From: a virus
Reading direction: 5' to 3' (one strand)
DNA length: 52,418 nt
IMG/VR virus record: IMGVR_UViG_3300031673_000067
Span: 1-52,418 of that record
The translations under genes were made by a program, and so were the position numbers. How positions within the stretch are numbered: position 1 is the first letter of the stretch; every line of letters begins with the position of its first letter. The notes beneath the pieces were generated by a model. That model had not been told where the DNA came from and ran no database searches. It saw only the letters and a list, made by a program, of their open reading frames with translations. Below, piece by piece: positions 2,081 to 52,418 of the stretch.

Positions 2081-2550
2081 CAAAACAAGAAATTATGCAA
2101 ATGGTTAAAAAACCTAAATCAAAAGTATTAGAATTTTTGTTGACAATTCCTGAGGCAGGAAAAGTGAAATATCTTGAGGAATGTCAACTGGTTTTGACGG
2201 ACATCTTTATTGGTGAAATGAAATATAATTTACATCCAGCAAAGTCAAAAAACATTAAAGAGCGTTTTAAAGTGATTGAGAAAATCTTGATTGCATATGG
2301 ATGTAACCAGGATAAAATTGATTACGGCATCAATGCACTTGCGCAAATCGCAATCTACGGATATGAGAAAAAAGCTATAAAAGATAAACTTATAAACAAA
2401 TACAACCCTGTCAACGATGGCATAAATGTAGGTAATGAGATTGCTAAATTACAAAAAGCCAATGCTGGAAAATCTGATAGTATATTTGAGGTTTCTGAGT
2501 TGGATTCTGTAATTGATCCTCTATCTTATGCAAGAGCATTCTGGAGATGA
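2077..2550 (+). CDS. Unknown 157-aa protein
   Basis: No family recognised. The protein is helical and lysine-rich, without membrane segments or cysteine motifs that stand out. Its start overlaps the zinc-ribbon gene by four bases, and its stop overlaps the kinase-like gene by four bases (ATGA at 2547). This strict coupling to the histidine-kinase-like protein suggests that the two act together (inference). Confidence 0.75.
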   Translation: MTKQEIMQMVKKPKSKVLEFLLTIPEAGKVKYLEECQLVLTDIFIGEMKYNLHPAKSKNIKERFKVIEKILIAYGCNQDKIDYGINALAQIAIYGYEKKAIKDKLINKYNPVNDGINVGNEIAKLQKANAGKSDSIFEVSELDSVIDPLSYARAFWR

Positions 2551-3920
2551 CATATTTAAGAATTGATGATTTGCAAAAAGTCAGAAATCATGTCCATTTT
2601 GCAGCAGCGTCATTATTTACGGTAGGCGGTATCTGGTCTACCGTATTAAATTTTAATGATTATAGACAAAGCAACTTAATCAACACACTAAATGTCAATA
2701 GTGTTAAATATGTTCTATTATGCACAATATTAATGGCATTTACGTTTATTCCTCATAGGATATCTCGATATATACAGGTAGCAACTCTTCTATTAGCATC
2801 AACATTATGTATACTGATCAACAATGAAATAGGGGTTGTAGCAGAGTTCCCGTTTCTGGCATGTGCAATTGTTTTAATGTTAGCGTATGGATTTCTCGGT
2901 GATCAGTCTCTTATTTACGATATTAAAAAACATAAATTATTTTTATTAATAACATGGTTTATTCTGGCTTATGTTATCAAGTTTTATATTTATAAATTTG
3001 ATATTATTCAATTTACAATTAGTTATCTTAATCAATATTTTTATTTTTTTGCGTTTTCTATTATTTTAATATTGTCGTTAAAATTAATCATAAGTATTTC
3101 TAATAACATAATCATCAAATTGCGTGAAACAAACATAAATATATCTAACGAAGCAAAGTTATTATATACAGAAATACTAACCAAAAACAACGAGATTGAT
3201 ATTAAAAACAAAGAGATCAATAAAATAACTAAAGAACTATTAATGAAAAACACTTTGACTGAAATAGGAAAAGCTACTTCTAACACGCTACACAGCATAG
3301 GAAATGTTTTAGCACAGGTTAAACTTTTAGGCGATTATATAGAAACTGACTTATCAAAAACTGAGGATATATTCCTCTATGTTGATGTGTCATTAAAATC
3401 TATAAATGACGCTATTAAACTCGTAAATAACGAAAGAAACTATCTTAAATTTGGCATCTCTAATGATATGATGTTAAATGATGTAAAGGATATTATTGAA
3501 GCTGTTTTATATCTATATCGTATAAAAGACAAATATAATTTCATTACCAGTTATTCTAATAATCTAGTAATCAACATCAACGCATGCGAATTCAAAGAGG
3601 CTTTTATGAACATCTTAAAAAATGCTATAGAGGCATCTGAAGATATAATAAAGCCTAATATCTATATAACTGCAAACAGAATTGATGAATATATATATGT
3701 TGAAATAACAGACCAGGGTACCGGTATTGAGATATGTAGTATTTGCGGCAAAAACAATTGTTTAGAATGTAATAAATTTTCACTTGGTAATACAACAAAA
3801 ATAAATGGTTCAGGAAACGGAAAAAGGCAGGTTATAGATTTTTGCAATAAATATGATTATGGATTTAAAATTAAATCAGAGGTAAATAATTTTACAAAAA
3901 TTACTTTGGAATTGAAATGA
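2547..3920 (+). CDS. Membrane histidine-kinase-like protein with Cys insert
   Basis: A 457-residue protein with about six hydrophobic segments in residues 15-190, a helical linker (about 195-235), a dimerisation-like region with a candidate phospho-acceptor His249 in NTLHSIGNVLAQV, and a GHKL ATPase domain. In the ATPase, the N-box is EAFMNILKNAIEASE (N355, N359), the G1 box is DQGTGI (389-394), and the G2-like part is GSGNGKRQV (421-429). Between G1 and G2 sits CSICGKNNCLEC (C397, C400, C405, C408), a likely zinc knuckle in the ATP lid. No response regulator is seen in the window. It may sense the cell state or act through the ATPase alone; both are inference. A signalling kinase is rare in phage genomes. 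Confidence 0.75.
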   Translation: MTYLRIDDLQKVRNHVHFAAASLFTVGGIWSTVLNFNDYRQSNLINTLNVNSVKYVLLCTILMAFTFIPHRISRYIQVATLLLASTLCILINNEIGVVAEFPFLACAIVLMLAYGFLGDQSLIYDIKKHKLFLLITWFILAYVIKFYIYKFDIIQFTISYLNQYFYFFAFSIILILSLKLIISISNNIIIKLRETNINISNEAKLLYTEILTKNNEIDIKNKEINKITKELLMKNTLTEIGKATSNTLHSIGNVLAQVKLLGDYIETDLSKTEDIFLYVDVSLKSINDAIKLVNNERNYLKFGISNDMMLNDVKDIIEAVLYLYRIKDKYNFITSYSNNLVININACEFKEAFMNILKNAIEASEDIIKPNIYITANRIDEYIYVEITDQGTGIEICSICGKNNCLECNKFSLGNTTKINGSGNGKRQVIDFCNKYDYGFKIKSEVNNFTKITLELK

Positions 3921-4081
3921 AAATATATTATATAAATAAATGTGCTGACTGCAAATATTGTGAAGTTGATTATTATACATGGGTTTTATATTGTGCTAAA
4001 GAAAATAGAATAATTGGAGATTATTTTACTGATAATGTTATACCTGAATGGTGTAAGCTAAAAATTCATTTGAGTAAATAA
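3917..4081 (+). CDS. Cys-rich microprotein (54 aa)
   Basis: The start overlaps the kinase-like gene by four bases (ATGA at 3917). Cysteines 9, 12, 15, 26 and 46 suggest metal binding. It is the last gene of the rightward operon, and its final 16 bases overlap the 3' end of the leftward gene ending at 4066, so the two operons converge without a spacer. Function unknown. Confidence 0.65.
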   Translation: MKIYYINKCADCKYCEVDYYTWVLYCAKENRIIGDYFTDNVIPEWCKLKIHLSK

Positions 4082-4884
4082 TTAAGTTTGTCATCATTTT
4101 TGACCCTAAACGAATATTGCGAGATGATTGCATCATTTAGTTGGTATCCAATAAAATTTAGGCCTTCCCTTTCCTCTTCCTGCGCATCTAACAATAATCT
4201 TAACTCTCTAAATCTTTTTACTTTTATATAATCTTCCCATATTTGCGAAAGAAAAAAATCTAATATTTGTGTACAGTCCTTCTCAATCGATATTAATGCT
4301 TCCGTATTGGATAGAAAATCTTGTTTTAATTTATCTATAATTTTTATATTGATTAAAGACTTAGCTGTTGTATATAACTCATTATAATCTTTGTGACTGG
4401 TAAACCCTAACTCCAGCGGTTCTATATAAGATAAAATCTGTCCTTTTAAAATTATAATTAATCCCTTATCTGTGCCTGTATAACTACATATCATTTTACT
4501 AAGTCGCTCTATGCTCGGATAAATCCCCAGTTTTTCCATTGCGAGGTGAAACGACTGGCGGTCTTTTTCTGAATTAAACACAGCCTTTTCCATCAGGATA
4601 TAATATTTATCCTGTAGTTCTAATTCTTTTTTTTTATTTTCTATTTTTTGTTTTTCTATTTCACGTTTTTCTTTTTCAGCTTGTTTTATTTCTATTTCTT
4701 TTCTATGACTTTTAATTATATTAATTAAACTCTCTAACCCTCGATTAATAAATTTTATGATTATGTAAACAATCAAAAAAAAAGAGCCTAATACAATAAG
4801 CCCTTTTATGCCTCCAATCAGATCAAACAGCTTTACAACTGCATCGGGATTATCCAAGGCTTTTTCTAATATTTTTTCATTCAT
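4066..4884 (-). CDS. Membrane-anchored coiled-coil protein (272 aa)
   Basis: No family recognised. A short N-terminal helix is followed by a transmembrane segment (about residues 28-47, GLIVLGSFFLIVYIIIKF), then a strongly charged coiled coil (about 58-95, rich in KQAEKEKREIEKQ repeats) and a helical domain. The start overlaps the hydrolase gene by eight bases. It is the last leftward gene of the late region. With the similarly built protein at 5589-6311 it brackets an alpha/beta hydrolase, so the three may form one membrane-associated unit. A role in superinfection exclusion or host lysis is possible but not shown. Confidence 0.7.
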   Translation of the reverse strand: MNEKILEKALDNPDAVVKLFDLIGGIKGLIVLGSFFLIVYIIIKFINRGLESLINIIKSHRKEIEIKQAEKEKREIEKQKIENKKKELELQDKYYILMEKAVFNSEKDRQSFHLAMEKLGIYPSIERLSKMICSYTGTDKGLIIILKGQILSYIEPLELGFTSHKDYNELYTTAKSLINIKIIDKLKQDFLSNTEALISIEKDCTQILDFFLSQIWEDYIKVKRFRELRLLLDAQEEEREGLNFIGYQLNDAIISQYSFRVKNDDKLNYLLK

Positions 4885-43982: not shown

Positions 43983-44855
43983 TCAATCTGGTTGTGGTTC
44001 ACCAATAAAATACCGGTTTTCATTAGTAAGTTCTTCAGGCGCAACCCTTTTTTTTCTTTTTAACCCCAGCATGATTTTTTCAAATTGGCTATATATAATG
44101 TTAGGGTTGTATTCATTTTTCTTAATAAATTCGTCTGCAAATGCAGCATCGAAAAAAGCGGAACATTGTTCTAATGAAGAGAAGCTTTTAAGAAGCTTGG
44201 ATAAGTTACCTAAATACTTCTTTGTAAAGATTAAGCTATTTATAGTATCCTGATTATATATTGCTAATAGATGATTATTATATATTTCTTTATAAAGAGT
44301 GTAACCGGATTTATCCGGTATATCTTTATTTGTTTTTTTATCTAACTCTAACTCTAACTCTAACTCTAACTCTAACTCTAACTCTAACTCTGGTGGAAAT
44401 TGTCCCGGACATTGTCCTTTAGTTTGTCCACCCTTTTTTTTGCTTTTATTCGTTATTAGTTTTTTTGCATTTTCTTCTATTTTCTTGCGATATTGAGCTT
44501 TTCTTTCCGCTTCTGTTGACCCGTGTCCTATGAAATTTTGTATATCTGATATGAATATTTCACCTGTATTTAGTATGTCTATAATACCCATTTCTTTTGC
44601 TAAATTAACAGCGTGCATAACATTTGCCGGATCATGTCCCAAGACACCTGCTAGTATATCTATCTTATCTGCCATATAAGGAATACGTTCATTTATCATT
44701 AACTGCCCTTCCCATTTAAGAGACTTCAAGTAAAGCTTTAATATAATAAGACTGTATTCATATCCATTTTTCATAGCCTCAATTACTTTTATATGATCCT
44801 GTTCAAAATAATTTTCTTTGAACTTAAGATAATAATATTTTTTATTTTCGCTCAC
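43983..44855 (-). CDS. Replisome organiser / replication initiator
   Basis: The N-terminal 130 residues fit the phage replisome organiser domain: YYYLKFKENYFEQDHIKVIE, YMADKIDILAGVLGHD, then GEIFISDIQNFIGHGSTEAE. It probably binds the origin and loads DnaB. A (Glu-Leu)8 repeat (about residues 155-171) links it to a helical C-terminal domain. GGAG lies eight bases before the ATG at 44855. Preceded by a structured leader. Confidence 0.8.
   Translation of the reverse strand: MSENKKYYYLKFKENYFEQDHIKVIEAMKNGYEYSLIILKLYLKSLKWEGQLMINERIPYMADKIDILAGVLGHDPANVMHAVNLAKEMGIIDILNTGEIFISDIQNFIGHGSTEAERKAQYRKKIEENAKKLITNKSKKKGGQTKGQCPGQFPPELELELELELELELELDKKTNKDIPDKSGYTLYKEIYNNHLLAIYNQDTINSLIFTKKYLGNLSKLLKSFSSLEQCSAFFDAAFADEFIKKNEYNPNIIYSQFEKIMLGLKRKKRVAPEELTNENRYFIGEPQPD
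44341..44391. repeat. (Glu-Leu)n microsatellite in the initiator gene
   Basis: Eight tandem aactct hexamers on the plus strand, read as eight Glu-Leu pairs on the minus strand. As the unit is six bases long, changes in copy number keep the frame and would only change the length of the linker. Confidence 0.9.
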
Positions 44856-50370: not shown

Positions 50371-50577
50371 ATGAAATACATTACTATGAAAGCAATCGAC
50401 TGGGAAAGATTTTTTCGAGAGACAGAACTAAGTCCAGCTGAGACAGCGGTAAAAATAAATAGGTCTGCTGCTACTATATATGCGTATATAGATAGAAAAT
50501 ATCTTAAACTTTCTACTATTAATAACATGATCAAAAATTTTCCAGAAATAAAAAATTATATTATTGAGGACAAATGA
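50371..50577 (+). CDS. Small HTH-like regulator (68 aa)
   Basis: Start 50371 is chosen over 50356 because AAGGAG lies seven bases before it. DWERFFRETELSPAETAVKI then NRSAATIYAYIDRKY look like a helix-turn-helix. As the first gene behind the rightward promoter it could be a Cro-like regulator of the divergent promoters. Family match not certain. Confidence 0.65.
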   Translation: MKYITMKAIDWERFFRETELSPAETAVKINRSAATIYAYIDRKYLKLSTINNMIKNFPEIKNYIIEDK

Positions 50578-51152
50578 TGAATGATTTAGAAAAAGAAAAA
50601 ACTATGACTATTAAAGAATTAGCAGAAGTTTTAAATCTTGATGTTCGTACTATACAATTAAAAGTTAAAGAGTTATTCCCTGATATAGTAAAAGAGAAAG
50701 TGAAAACTTATTTAAATGAATATCAAGTTACATCGATAAAACTTGCCTGCGAAAAAAAATTCGCAGTTAAAACTGAGCTTGAAAAAGAATTGCTTATACA
50801 TCAAGCTATGATTTATCAACAAGAAAAGATCAATATATTGCAGCTAGAAATTGAGAAAATGAAACCAAAGGCCGTTAGTTATGATATATTTATTTCCTCA
50901 AAAGGTTTACATGATATGGATGAAGTTGCAAAGCTATTCGGCACTGGTAGAAATAGACTATTTAAGCTTTTGAGAGATAATAATTATTTAAAAACCAATA
51001 ACGTTCCATATCAACAATTTATTGACGCAGGATATTTTGAGGTAAAAGAAAAAGTCATCCCCACCGGAGAGGCTATACCAGTTACTAAAGTCACATCATC
51101 TGGTATTGTGGCGACAGAGAATATAATCAGGAGAATTGGAAATGACCTGTAA
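50574..51152 (+). CDS. Antirepressor with KilAC (ANT) domain
   Basis: A 192-residue protein: an N-terminal HTH (MTIKELAEVLNLDVRTIQLK), a helical middle, and a KilAC domain from about residue 110 (SKGLHDMDEVAKLFGTGRNR, then LKTNNVPYQQFIDAGYFEVK). Such proteins inactivate phage repressors. The start overlaps the HTH gene stop. The last 49 codons are repeated at bases 1-151. Confidence 0.85.
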   Translation: MMNDLEKEKTMTIKELAEVLNLDVRTIQLKVKELFPDIVKEKVKTYLNEYQVTSIKLACEKKFAVKTELEKELLIHQAMIYQQEKINILQLEIEKMKPKAVSYDIFISSKGLHDMDEVAKLFGTGRNRLFKLLRDNNYLKTNNVPYQQFIDAGYFEVKEKVIPTGEAIPVTKVTSSGIVATENIIRRIGNDL

Positions 51153-51282
51153 AGATTGTAAACATCAGTATAGTCATAGTAGCCGGTGTGTGTACTGCAT
51201 ACATTATTATGCTCGTATATATACAATACCAGACCAGATTAAAAATAAATTAACTGATAGAAAGGTGAGCGTATGCAAATAA
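51002..51282. repeat. Right copy of terminal overlap (partner 1-281)
   Basis: Same segment as bases 1-281 with six mismatches. Behind it the two copies diverge into different nuclease genes. Confidence 0.95.
51142..51282 (+). CDS. Four-cysteine microprotein, right copy
   Basis: Same gene as 141-281, with two visible substitutions outside the cysteines (His8, Ile20) and another near the end. Overlaps the next start at 51273. Conservation of both CxxC pairs supports function. Confidence 0.65.
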   Translation: MTCKDCKHQYSHSSRCVYCIHYYARIYTIPDQIKNKLTDRKVSVCK

Positions 51283-52124
51283 CTAACAAATATAATTTAC
51301 CTGAGGCTATTGTATCTGCTATTCATGCGTTTCAGTATAACTATACAGCGTCTAAAACAGGGGAGGAAAAATTTACCGTATCTGAATTGCTTAAACCAGC
51401 GTATCAAAGATATTTGCAAAAAAAGCATTTTGCTCAGATCACGGAGGACGCTAGCGAGCGTATATGGGCGTTAATGGGACAGGCTATGCATGCAGTGCTA
51501 AATAATCAAAATGTTGATAATAGCTTGTCTGAGGAGCGTTTACGGGCTGTTATAGACAATGTTATAATTTCCGGGCAAATAGATATGTACAAAGACGGGA
51601 TAATTGATGACTACAAATTCTGTTCTACCTGGAAATATATTTTTCATGATTATGAAGAGTTTGAAAAGCAGCTTAATATCTATGCATATCTATGTAGAAC
51701 AACCGGATTGCCTGTAAATGAAATTAGAGCTATTTTGGTTTTCAATAATTGGTCTTTAGAAGAGGCAGACAGAAAATCTGCCTATCCTCAAGAGCCTATA
51801 AAAGTCATTCCTCTTAATCTCTGGGATAATGAAACTACATTAGAATTTATCCGGGAGAGAATCACAGCACATCAACATCCTCACATTTGTAACGAATCAG
51901 AACGGTGGTCTAAACAAACAAAATATGCTGTCATGAAAAATAAGAACAAATCAGCAAAATCATTATGCAATAGTTTATCAGAAGCGGAAATCTATATCGA
52001 AAATCTAAATGATACTAAAAATAAATACAGAATTGATATAAGACCTGGCGTTGATAAACGATGTAATAAATATTGTAATGTTAAGAATTTTTGTAGCTAT
52101 TATCTTGGAAAAAATAAGGAGTAA
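51273..52124 (+). CDS. Cas4/AddB-like PD-(D/E)XK nuclease
   Basis: A 283-residue nuclease in the place where the left copy has a RecE-like enzyme. ALMGQAMHAV contains His73, SGQIDMYKDG has D104, IDDYKF has D113 and K115, and EKQLNIYAYL has Q133. C206 (HICNESERW), C264, C268 and C274 (RCNKYCNVKNFC) resemble the iron-sulphur cysteines of Cas4/AddB nucleases. It is a frequent phage recombination nuclease type. Only the first codons and the start context are shared with the left allele. Confidence 0.75.
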   Translation: MQITNKYNLPEAIVSAIHAFQYNYTASKTGEEKFTVSELLKPAYQRYLQKKHFAQITEDASERIWALMGQAMHAVLNNQNVDNSLSEERLRAVIDNVIISGQIDMYKDGIIDDYKFCSTWKYIFHDYEEFEKQLNIYAYLCRTTGLPVNEIRAILVFNNWSLEEADRKSAYPQEPIKVIPLNLWDNETTLEFIRERITAHQHPHICNESERWSKQTKYAVMKNKNKSAKSLCNSLSEAEIYIENLNDTKNKYRIDIRPGVDKRCNKYCNVKNFCSYYLGKNKE

Positions 52125-52126
52125 TT

Positions 52127-52418
52127 ATGGAAAAGAAATCATATCAAGAACTTTTTGCATATAAAGTAAATTGCAAATGCGGCACTGAAAATATCATTTT
52201 TTCTGAAAATGAGGACACTCAGCAAAATGACGCTATAACTGTGTATTGTATATGTAAAAAATGTGGCAGGGTGGTAAAATTTTTACTACCGAAAGAAAAA
52301 ATTGAAAATGAATTAAATGAGTATAAAAAGAAAACAATATTTTCTGATGAATTGTTGTGGATTGTCGAATATTTTGACGAATTAAATATCAGATATCTGT
52401 TAGACGCTAATGATTTAA
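52127..52418 (+). CDS. Zinc-module fusion of the 102-aa protein, 5' part
   Basis: Cut by the window end after 97 codons. Residues 1-55 are a Cys-rich module (C16, C18, C41, C43, C46: CKCG, CICKKCG). From residue 56 on the protein is identical to residue 7 onward of the 102-aa protein at 1064-1372, in the same frame. GGAG lies before the ATG at 52127. The gene continues beyond the window, presumably as at 1209-1372. Confidence 0.75.
   Translation, partial: MEKKSYQELFAYKVNCKCGTENIIFSENEDTQQNDAITVYCICKKCGRVVKFLLPKEKIENELNEYKKKTIFSDELLWIVEYFDELNIRYLLDANDL

Follow-up and report, generated by a model that had tools for sequence, protein, structure and literature searches.

A putative spirochaete membrane signaling module, comprising a histidine kinase with a four-cysteine ATP lid and its conserved partner, in a contractile-tailed phage

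Few phages carry sensor kinases, and the clearest precedent that we found is one agr locus. This locus, agrDBC of the Clostridioides difficile phage phiCDHM1, includes an AgrC kinase and no response regulator (PMC3901668). Among bacterial kinases, SrrB of S. aureus harbors a redox-active two-cysteine disulfide in its ATP-binding domain, reported not to be conserved in all staphylococci (PMC8534201, PMC8774646). Here we describe a pair of overlapping genes (2077-2550 and 2547-3920) in a viral contig of 52,418 nucleotides (IMG/VR record IMGVR_UViG_3300031673_000067, positions 1 to 52,418; hereafter the window). On the evidence of their sequences, both products belong to conserved families, the pairing of the two genes is conserved, and the second product retains the ATP-binding residues and the conserved histidine of a kinase. 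The first-pass annotation of this DNA had described the kinase; it missed that the gene upstream is a conserved partner and that the two genes form a spirochaete module whose outputs can be exchanged.

The kinase gene (2547-3920, + strand) is predicted from a HATPase_c match, Foldseek hits and its relatives to encode a membrane histidine kinase of 457 aa with a four-cysteine ATP lid. The ~190 N-terminal residues are hydrophobic, and hydropathy, AF2 helices and a profile of HTH-type membrane domains (discussed below) delimit a predicted six-span membrane domain at residues ~12-184 (2580-3098, + strand). The six spans annotated previously are matched by six N-terminal helices in the AF2 model, at low confidence, but only five of them rise above a plain hydropathy cut-off, leaving a six-span topology likely but not proven. 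No periplasmic, PAS or HAMP domain was found in the protein. The model continues with a long helical pair (residues 197-264 and 269-302), the first helix of which contains His249 (3291-3293, + strand), the predicted phosphoacceptor of the dimerization helix; its H-box, SNTLHSIGNVL, follows an H[NDS][FIL] pattern that is kept, His included, in 10/10 aligned family members. Residues 308-457 (3468-3917, + strand) adopt in the model the GHKL order of strands and helices, with pLDDT of about 74-91 outside the lid, and are identified by model and Foldseek as the catalytic ATP-binding domain. They comprise an N-box (N355/N359), a G1 box (D389-x-G391-x-G393), T416-T417-K418 and the G2 glycines G421/G423/G425.

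Structure prediction had been set beforehand as a test able to refute the kinase assignment, and it yielded a histidine-kinase fold: the top Foldseek matches to the model are cytoplasmic domains of histidine kinases, including ZraS (E 3.6e-13, the best PDB match), HK853, YycG and CckA. In the family searches proposed in the same annotation, Pfam HATPase_c matched the window kinase at E 3.5e-4 and 21.4 bits, under the curated cut-off of 26.4 and below the 36.5-62.6 bits of its relatives, whereas Pfam HisKA did not match it. Because the HATPase_c match falls under the cut-off, we regard the protein as a divergent kinase; the residue after its G2 glycines is a Lys, in place of the Leu or Met usual in kinases. 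The predicted structure and the motifs nevertheless place it among the HisKA/HATPase_c histidine kinases, and the earlier reading of a histidine kinase with His249 and a GHKL ATPase is borne out by motifs, H-box and fold.

The distinguishing feature of this kinase is a cluster of four cysteines, C397-x2-C400-x4-C405-x2-C408 (3735-3770, + strand), that lies between G1 (DQGTG) and TTK...GSGNG, precisely the ATP-lid position between the G1 and G2 boxes to which it had been assigned, and, as judged by lid comparison, replaces the F-box part of the lid. The lid is a low-confidence region of the AF2 model. Viral and genome collections scanned with single proteins yielded no relative; the motif pattern alone did so. 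A degenerate DNA pattern for CxxC-x4-CxxC-x7-TTK-x2-GxGxG produced two matches in 2.9 million viral contigs (L002 and L003), both genuine homologues and both carrying the same second phage kinase, of 403 aa and 24% identity. A looser pattern matched at least 119 stretches in a bacterial genome collection; among the matches listed, five were readable kinases with a G2 box, all of them from spirochaetes (L024, L041, L055, L092, L106), and the remaining stretches were chance or non-coding. Relaxing the pattern to two cysteines added chance matches only. Additional family members were obtained by whole-genome searches. When 50,697 phages were searched by tblastn with the kinase, with its relatives and with the partner, there was no match. 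Our searches of the open literature turned up no description of a kinase with a cysteine lid.

All four cysteines are retained in 11/11 identified members, which comprise the window kinase, that of the second phage and those of several spirochaete chromosomes, so that the conservation on which the first-pass annotation had staked its claim is confirmed. Four to six residues separate the two CxxC pairs, in no case with loss of a cysteine, and across six aligned members the N-box, G1, the cysteines at positions 397, 400, 405 and 408, TTK and the G2 glycines are invariant. The stretch from G1 to TTK spans 22-24 residues in the 11 cysteine-lid members (22 in the window kinase), versus exactly 14 in 18/18 ordinary spirochaete kinases. 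When the lid was excised before phylogenetic inference, the 11 cysteine-lid kinases still fell on one side of one branch in 54% of bootstraps, a split matched in 0/500 label shuffles. Since the grouping persists without the lid, a single origin of these kinases is plausible, if not proven.

The same lid occurs on kinases with other sensor parts and no adjacent partner, namely a CHASE2 protein (L106) and three proteins with membrane domains (L169, L170, L171); judging from these sequences, lid and partner are separate traits. Two of the membrane kinases (L169 and L170) are encoded between genes for a formate-tetrahydrofolate ligase and a CopA-like P-type ATPase, with neither a partner nor a response regulator beside them. 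The neighborhood of the CHASE2 kinase (L106:1898-7600) includes a response regulator of the NarL type and a fusion of a ferredoxin-like protein to a chemoreceptor-like coil. In the MAG contig labeled Brachyspira murdochii (L024), the gene order kinase, FAD-linked oxidase, FGGY kinase is that common to Exilispira-type MAGs, and the label may therefore be wrong.

These distributions bear on the strongest alternative to the interpretation that we develop below, which is that the lid is itself the sensor, with zinc availability, oxidation or cluster loss opening or closing the ATP lid and thereby informing the phage about the cell. Four invariant cysteines in a catalytic loop, the precedent of SrrB (PMC8534201, PMC8774646), the CopA-like metal ATPase gene adjoining two of the chromosomal kinases and the ferredoxin-like protein gene near another would all suit such a role. 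That one and the same lid accompanies different sensor domains, be it CHASE2 or the membrane receptor of the module, suggests instead a constitutive structural site, and an x4 to x6 spacing with every cysteine kept is what would be expected of a metal site. Because the lid is shared among such different sensors, we favor a fixed, structural metal site; the lid has the appearance of a trait fixed within a clade of kinases and not of a phage sensor, and we consider the sensor interpretation unlikely.

Directly upstream of the kinase gene, and overlapping it by the 4 bp ATGA, lies the partner gene (2077-2550, + strand), encoding a protein of 157 aa predicted to be soluble and all-helical (mean pLDDT of the model, 64), with a conserved Arg (RF) and a C-terminal Trp (AFWR). 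Searches for Pfam, NCBIfam, PHROG, PDB or fold matches to this protein were negative, as was tblastn against 72,556 plasmids. The L002 phage encodes a 154-aa protein at the same position, related to the window partner at E 1e-7; two genomes of the Exilispira group have a 180-183-aa gene there, and in a third both partner and kinase genes sit at contig ends. Profile comparison connects the phage and chromosomal pairs at E 8.5e-6. An HMM built from 11 chromosomal partners only, with the phage copies left out, picked both phage partners alone from the 362 ORFs of the two phage loci, at E 3.8e-13 for the window ORF and 1.3e-15 for the other phage copy, against 0.84 for the next best. In an alignment of 13 partner sequences, one Arg and one Trp close to the C-terminus are invariant.

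The partner family is present in 30/392 spirochaete genomes and absent from the 358 genomes sampled in the phyla of a Clostridium (0/149), an Arcicella (0/99) and a Curvibacter (0/110). At 22 of 28 chromosomal partner loci the next gene encodes an intact membrane protein of 3-6 spans ending in a LuxR-like helix-turn-helix; this HTH membrane protein is split over two frames at two more loci and became visible in another search at one further locus. A HisKA_2 kinase constitutes the output end at the L245 locus, and in the phages and the Exilispira group the output is the four-cysteine kinase. A profile of the HTH-type membrane domain that included no cysteine-lid kinase ranked cysteine-lid kinases as the top seven of 2126 sequences, those other than the window kinase at E 9e-20 to 2e-7 (L055, 9e-20; L002, 4.3e-8) and the window protein seventh, above all decoys, at a weak E of 0.0082. 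A separate profile comparison of the membrane domains gave E 1.6e-6, versus 1.6e-3 for a reversed control. The case that these kinases share their membrane domain with the partner-linked HTH proteins is thus strong for the relatives and weak for the window protein. We found no description of this partner/membrane-sensor module in the open literature, and it is apparently undescribed so far. At three of the 28 loci (L192, L195, L247), radical-SAM genes and ABC transporters adjoin the partner and HTH genes, which may hint at peptide clusters; an association of the module with RiPP or peptide clusters was considered and set aside, radical-SAM genes being near just these three loci.

The two phage partners and three chromosomal kinase-linked partners form one clade in the partner tree (support 95/96), and the same five group together in the lid-excised kinase tree (93/85). 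Since the two groupings contain the same five loci, partner and kinase have probably traveled together.

The window encodes a terminase, portal, major head protein, tail sheath and baseplate, and hence a contractile-tailed phage. Its ends overlap (1-285 with 51002-51286 at 97.5% identity, and 1082-1208 with 52292-52418 at 100%), which is evidence for a circularly permuted, nearly complete genome and places the antirepressor gene (50574-51152; phrog_63, E 3.5e-24) upstream of the kinase gene in the same direction. The operon thus reads antirepressor, exonuclease, ORFs 1064, 1369 and 1931, partner, kinase and ORF 3917, followed by convergent lysis and tail genes; once the overlapping ends are considered, it agrees with the earlier placement of the kinase in one operon with antirepressor and recombination genes. 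The kinase gene overlaps both neighbors, as had been noted, by a 4-bp ATGA: the partner gene at 2077-2550, and a cysteine-rich ORF of 54 aa (3917-4081, + strand) that has no significant family match and is probably the last gene of the operon. The start of the partner gene in turn overlaps by a 4-bp ATGA an ORF of 49 aa with a CxC...CxxC motif (1931-2080, + strand). Together with one running from 52127 to the end of the contig, these two make three small cysteine-rich, zinc-ribbon-like ORFs in the operon.

The repeated ends differ in their nucleases: an exonuclease VIII-like gene lies in one copy (272-1054), and an unrelated exonuclease gene (51273-52124; phrog_2139) occupies the other. Within the phage population, a single locus, represented by 1-1208 and 51002-52418, thus has two alternative nuclease genes. 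Elsewhere in the genome, the replisome organiser (43983-44855) includes an alternating Glu-Leu run (LELELELEL), and the length of this simple repeat could be variable. No PADLOC model for anti-phage defence matched the window. The host is most likely a spirochaete, although the matches of the terminase in spirochaetes are only distant. In the L002 phage the pair likewise ends a rightward recombination operon and faces convergent tail genes; this phage has a different recombination module, with a UvsX-type recombinase, and pairwise comparison detected no similarity between the baseplate proteins of the two phages. Early among the convergent genes that follow the module, each phage encodes a coiled-coil membrane protein lacking a family match (4066-4884 and L002:9330-10070), and the two are weakly similar to each other (E 0.001).

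In agreement with the earlier statement that no partner regulator is present, no PF00072 domain was detected in the window at E <= 1, with the control positive in 14/14 genomes, and the cognate response regulator nearby that a complete two-component system would include was not found. We consider it probable that 2077-2550 and 2547-3920 constitute a phage-carried spirochaete two-gene membrane signaling module, in which a receptor kinase with a metal-ordered lid and a dedicated soluble partner deliver their output to a host regulator. Partner and membrane domain together would form the sensing unit, the partner perhaps docking via its invariant C-terminal Trp tail (a guess, as is the partner structure), and the signal would alter the dimerization helices. 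His249 would then be autophosphorylated and the phosphate passed to a response regulator of the host, a target suggested by the fact that the phage carries none. Most likely, one metal ion (zinc, or an iron-sulfur cluster) is bound by the four cysteines and, substituting for the F-box, shapes and orders the ATP lid; such a metal lid could be regulated or constitutive. Overall, the module would read the state of the host, change its gene expression, or both, early in infection or at induction, a timing suggested by the location of the gene in an antirepressor-recombination operon.

Two-component kinases are often bifunctional, and the main role of the protein might instead be to withdraw phosphate, as a phosphatase or a decoy, from a response regulator of the host and so silence a host programme during infection. 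A phage without a response regulator and a sequence divergent at G2 would fit this role; D389, G391, G393, K418 and G421/423/425 are nonetheless intact, which a pure phosphatase need not keep, and we judge it distinctly improbable. Temperate phages commonly contain accessory genes of host origin and the family is otherwise chromosomal, but a passenger acquired from the host and with no role in the phage is very hard to reconcile with a tightly overlapped operon. It is equally hard to reconcile with the second phage, which retains the pair and every cysteine although its recombination module is different and its baseplate proteins show no detectable pairwise similarity.

A broader version of the signaling-module interpretation, which we advance only tentatively, is that the module represents a new spirochaete-specific receptor class with interchangeable outputs, and that at least two different phages captured the form with a kinase output. 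They would use it to detect a signal of spirochaetes, possibly one passed between cells or reflecting membrane state, and to steer their life cycle via a host regulator, the metal-clamped lid being a second control point. The locus connects a phage kinase with a chromosomal signaling family of spirochaetes that is apparently undescribed, and provides both a clade of four-cysteine-lid kinases and a named partner gene. The signal of the module, the regulator that the phage kinase addresses and the control of an ATP lid by metal thereby become testable questions, and the phage may use the module to read or rewire its host.

Among described systems, AgrC of phiCDHM1 is the nearest functional parallel, from a different family. 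Both are phage-encoded GHKL histidine kinases beside dedicated signaling genes and without a phage response regulator; the phiCDHM1 locus, however, makes and senses an AgrD/AgrB peptide, whereas the window has a predicted helical partner of the ~160-190-aa type, which belongs to another family, a lid with four cysteines and a membrane domain of probable spirochaete type, and AgrB and AgrD have no match among the ORFs neighboring its kinase. With ZraS, HK853 and AtoS the window kinase shares the dimerization helix with its His, the GHKL domain, N-box, G1, TTK and G2, but its 22-residue CxxC-x4-CxxC lid stands in place of their 14-residue F-box lid. SrrB is alike in having cysteines within the catalytic domain; there they form a two-cysteine disulfide, in contrast to the four invariant cysteines that make two CxxC pairs in the lid of the window family. 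A related architecture is found in the spirochaetes themselves, where the 3-6-span LuxR-HTH proteins have the same partner family and a membrane domain that the window protein matches weakly, and differ in that their output is DNA binding and that of the window protein a kinase.
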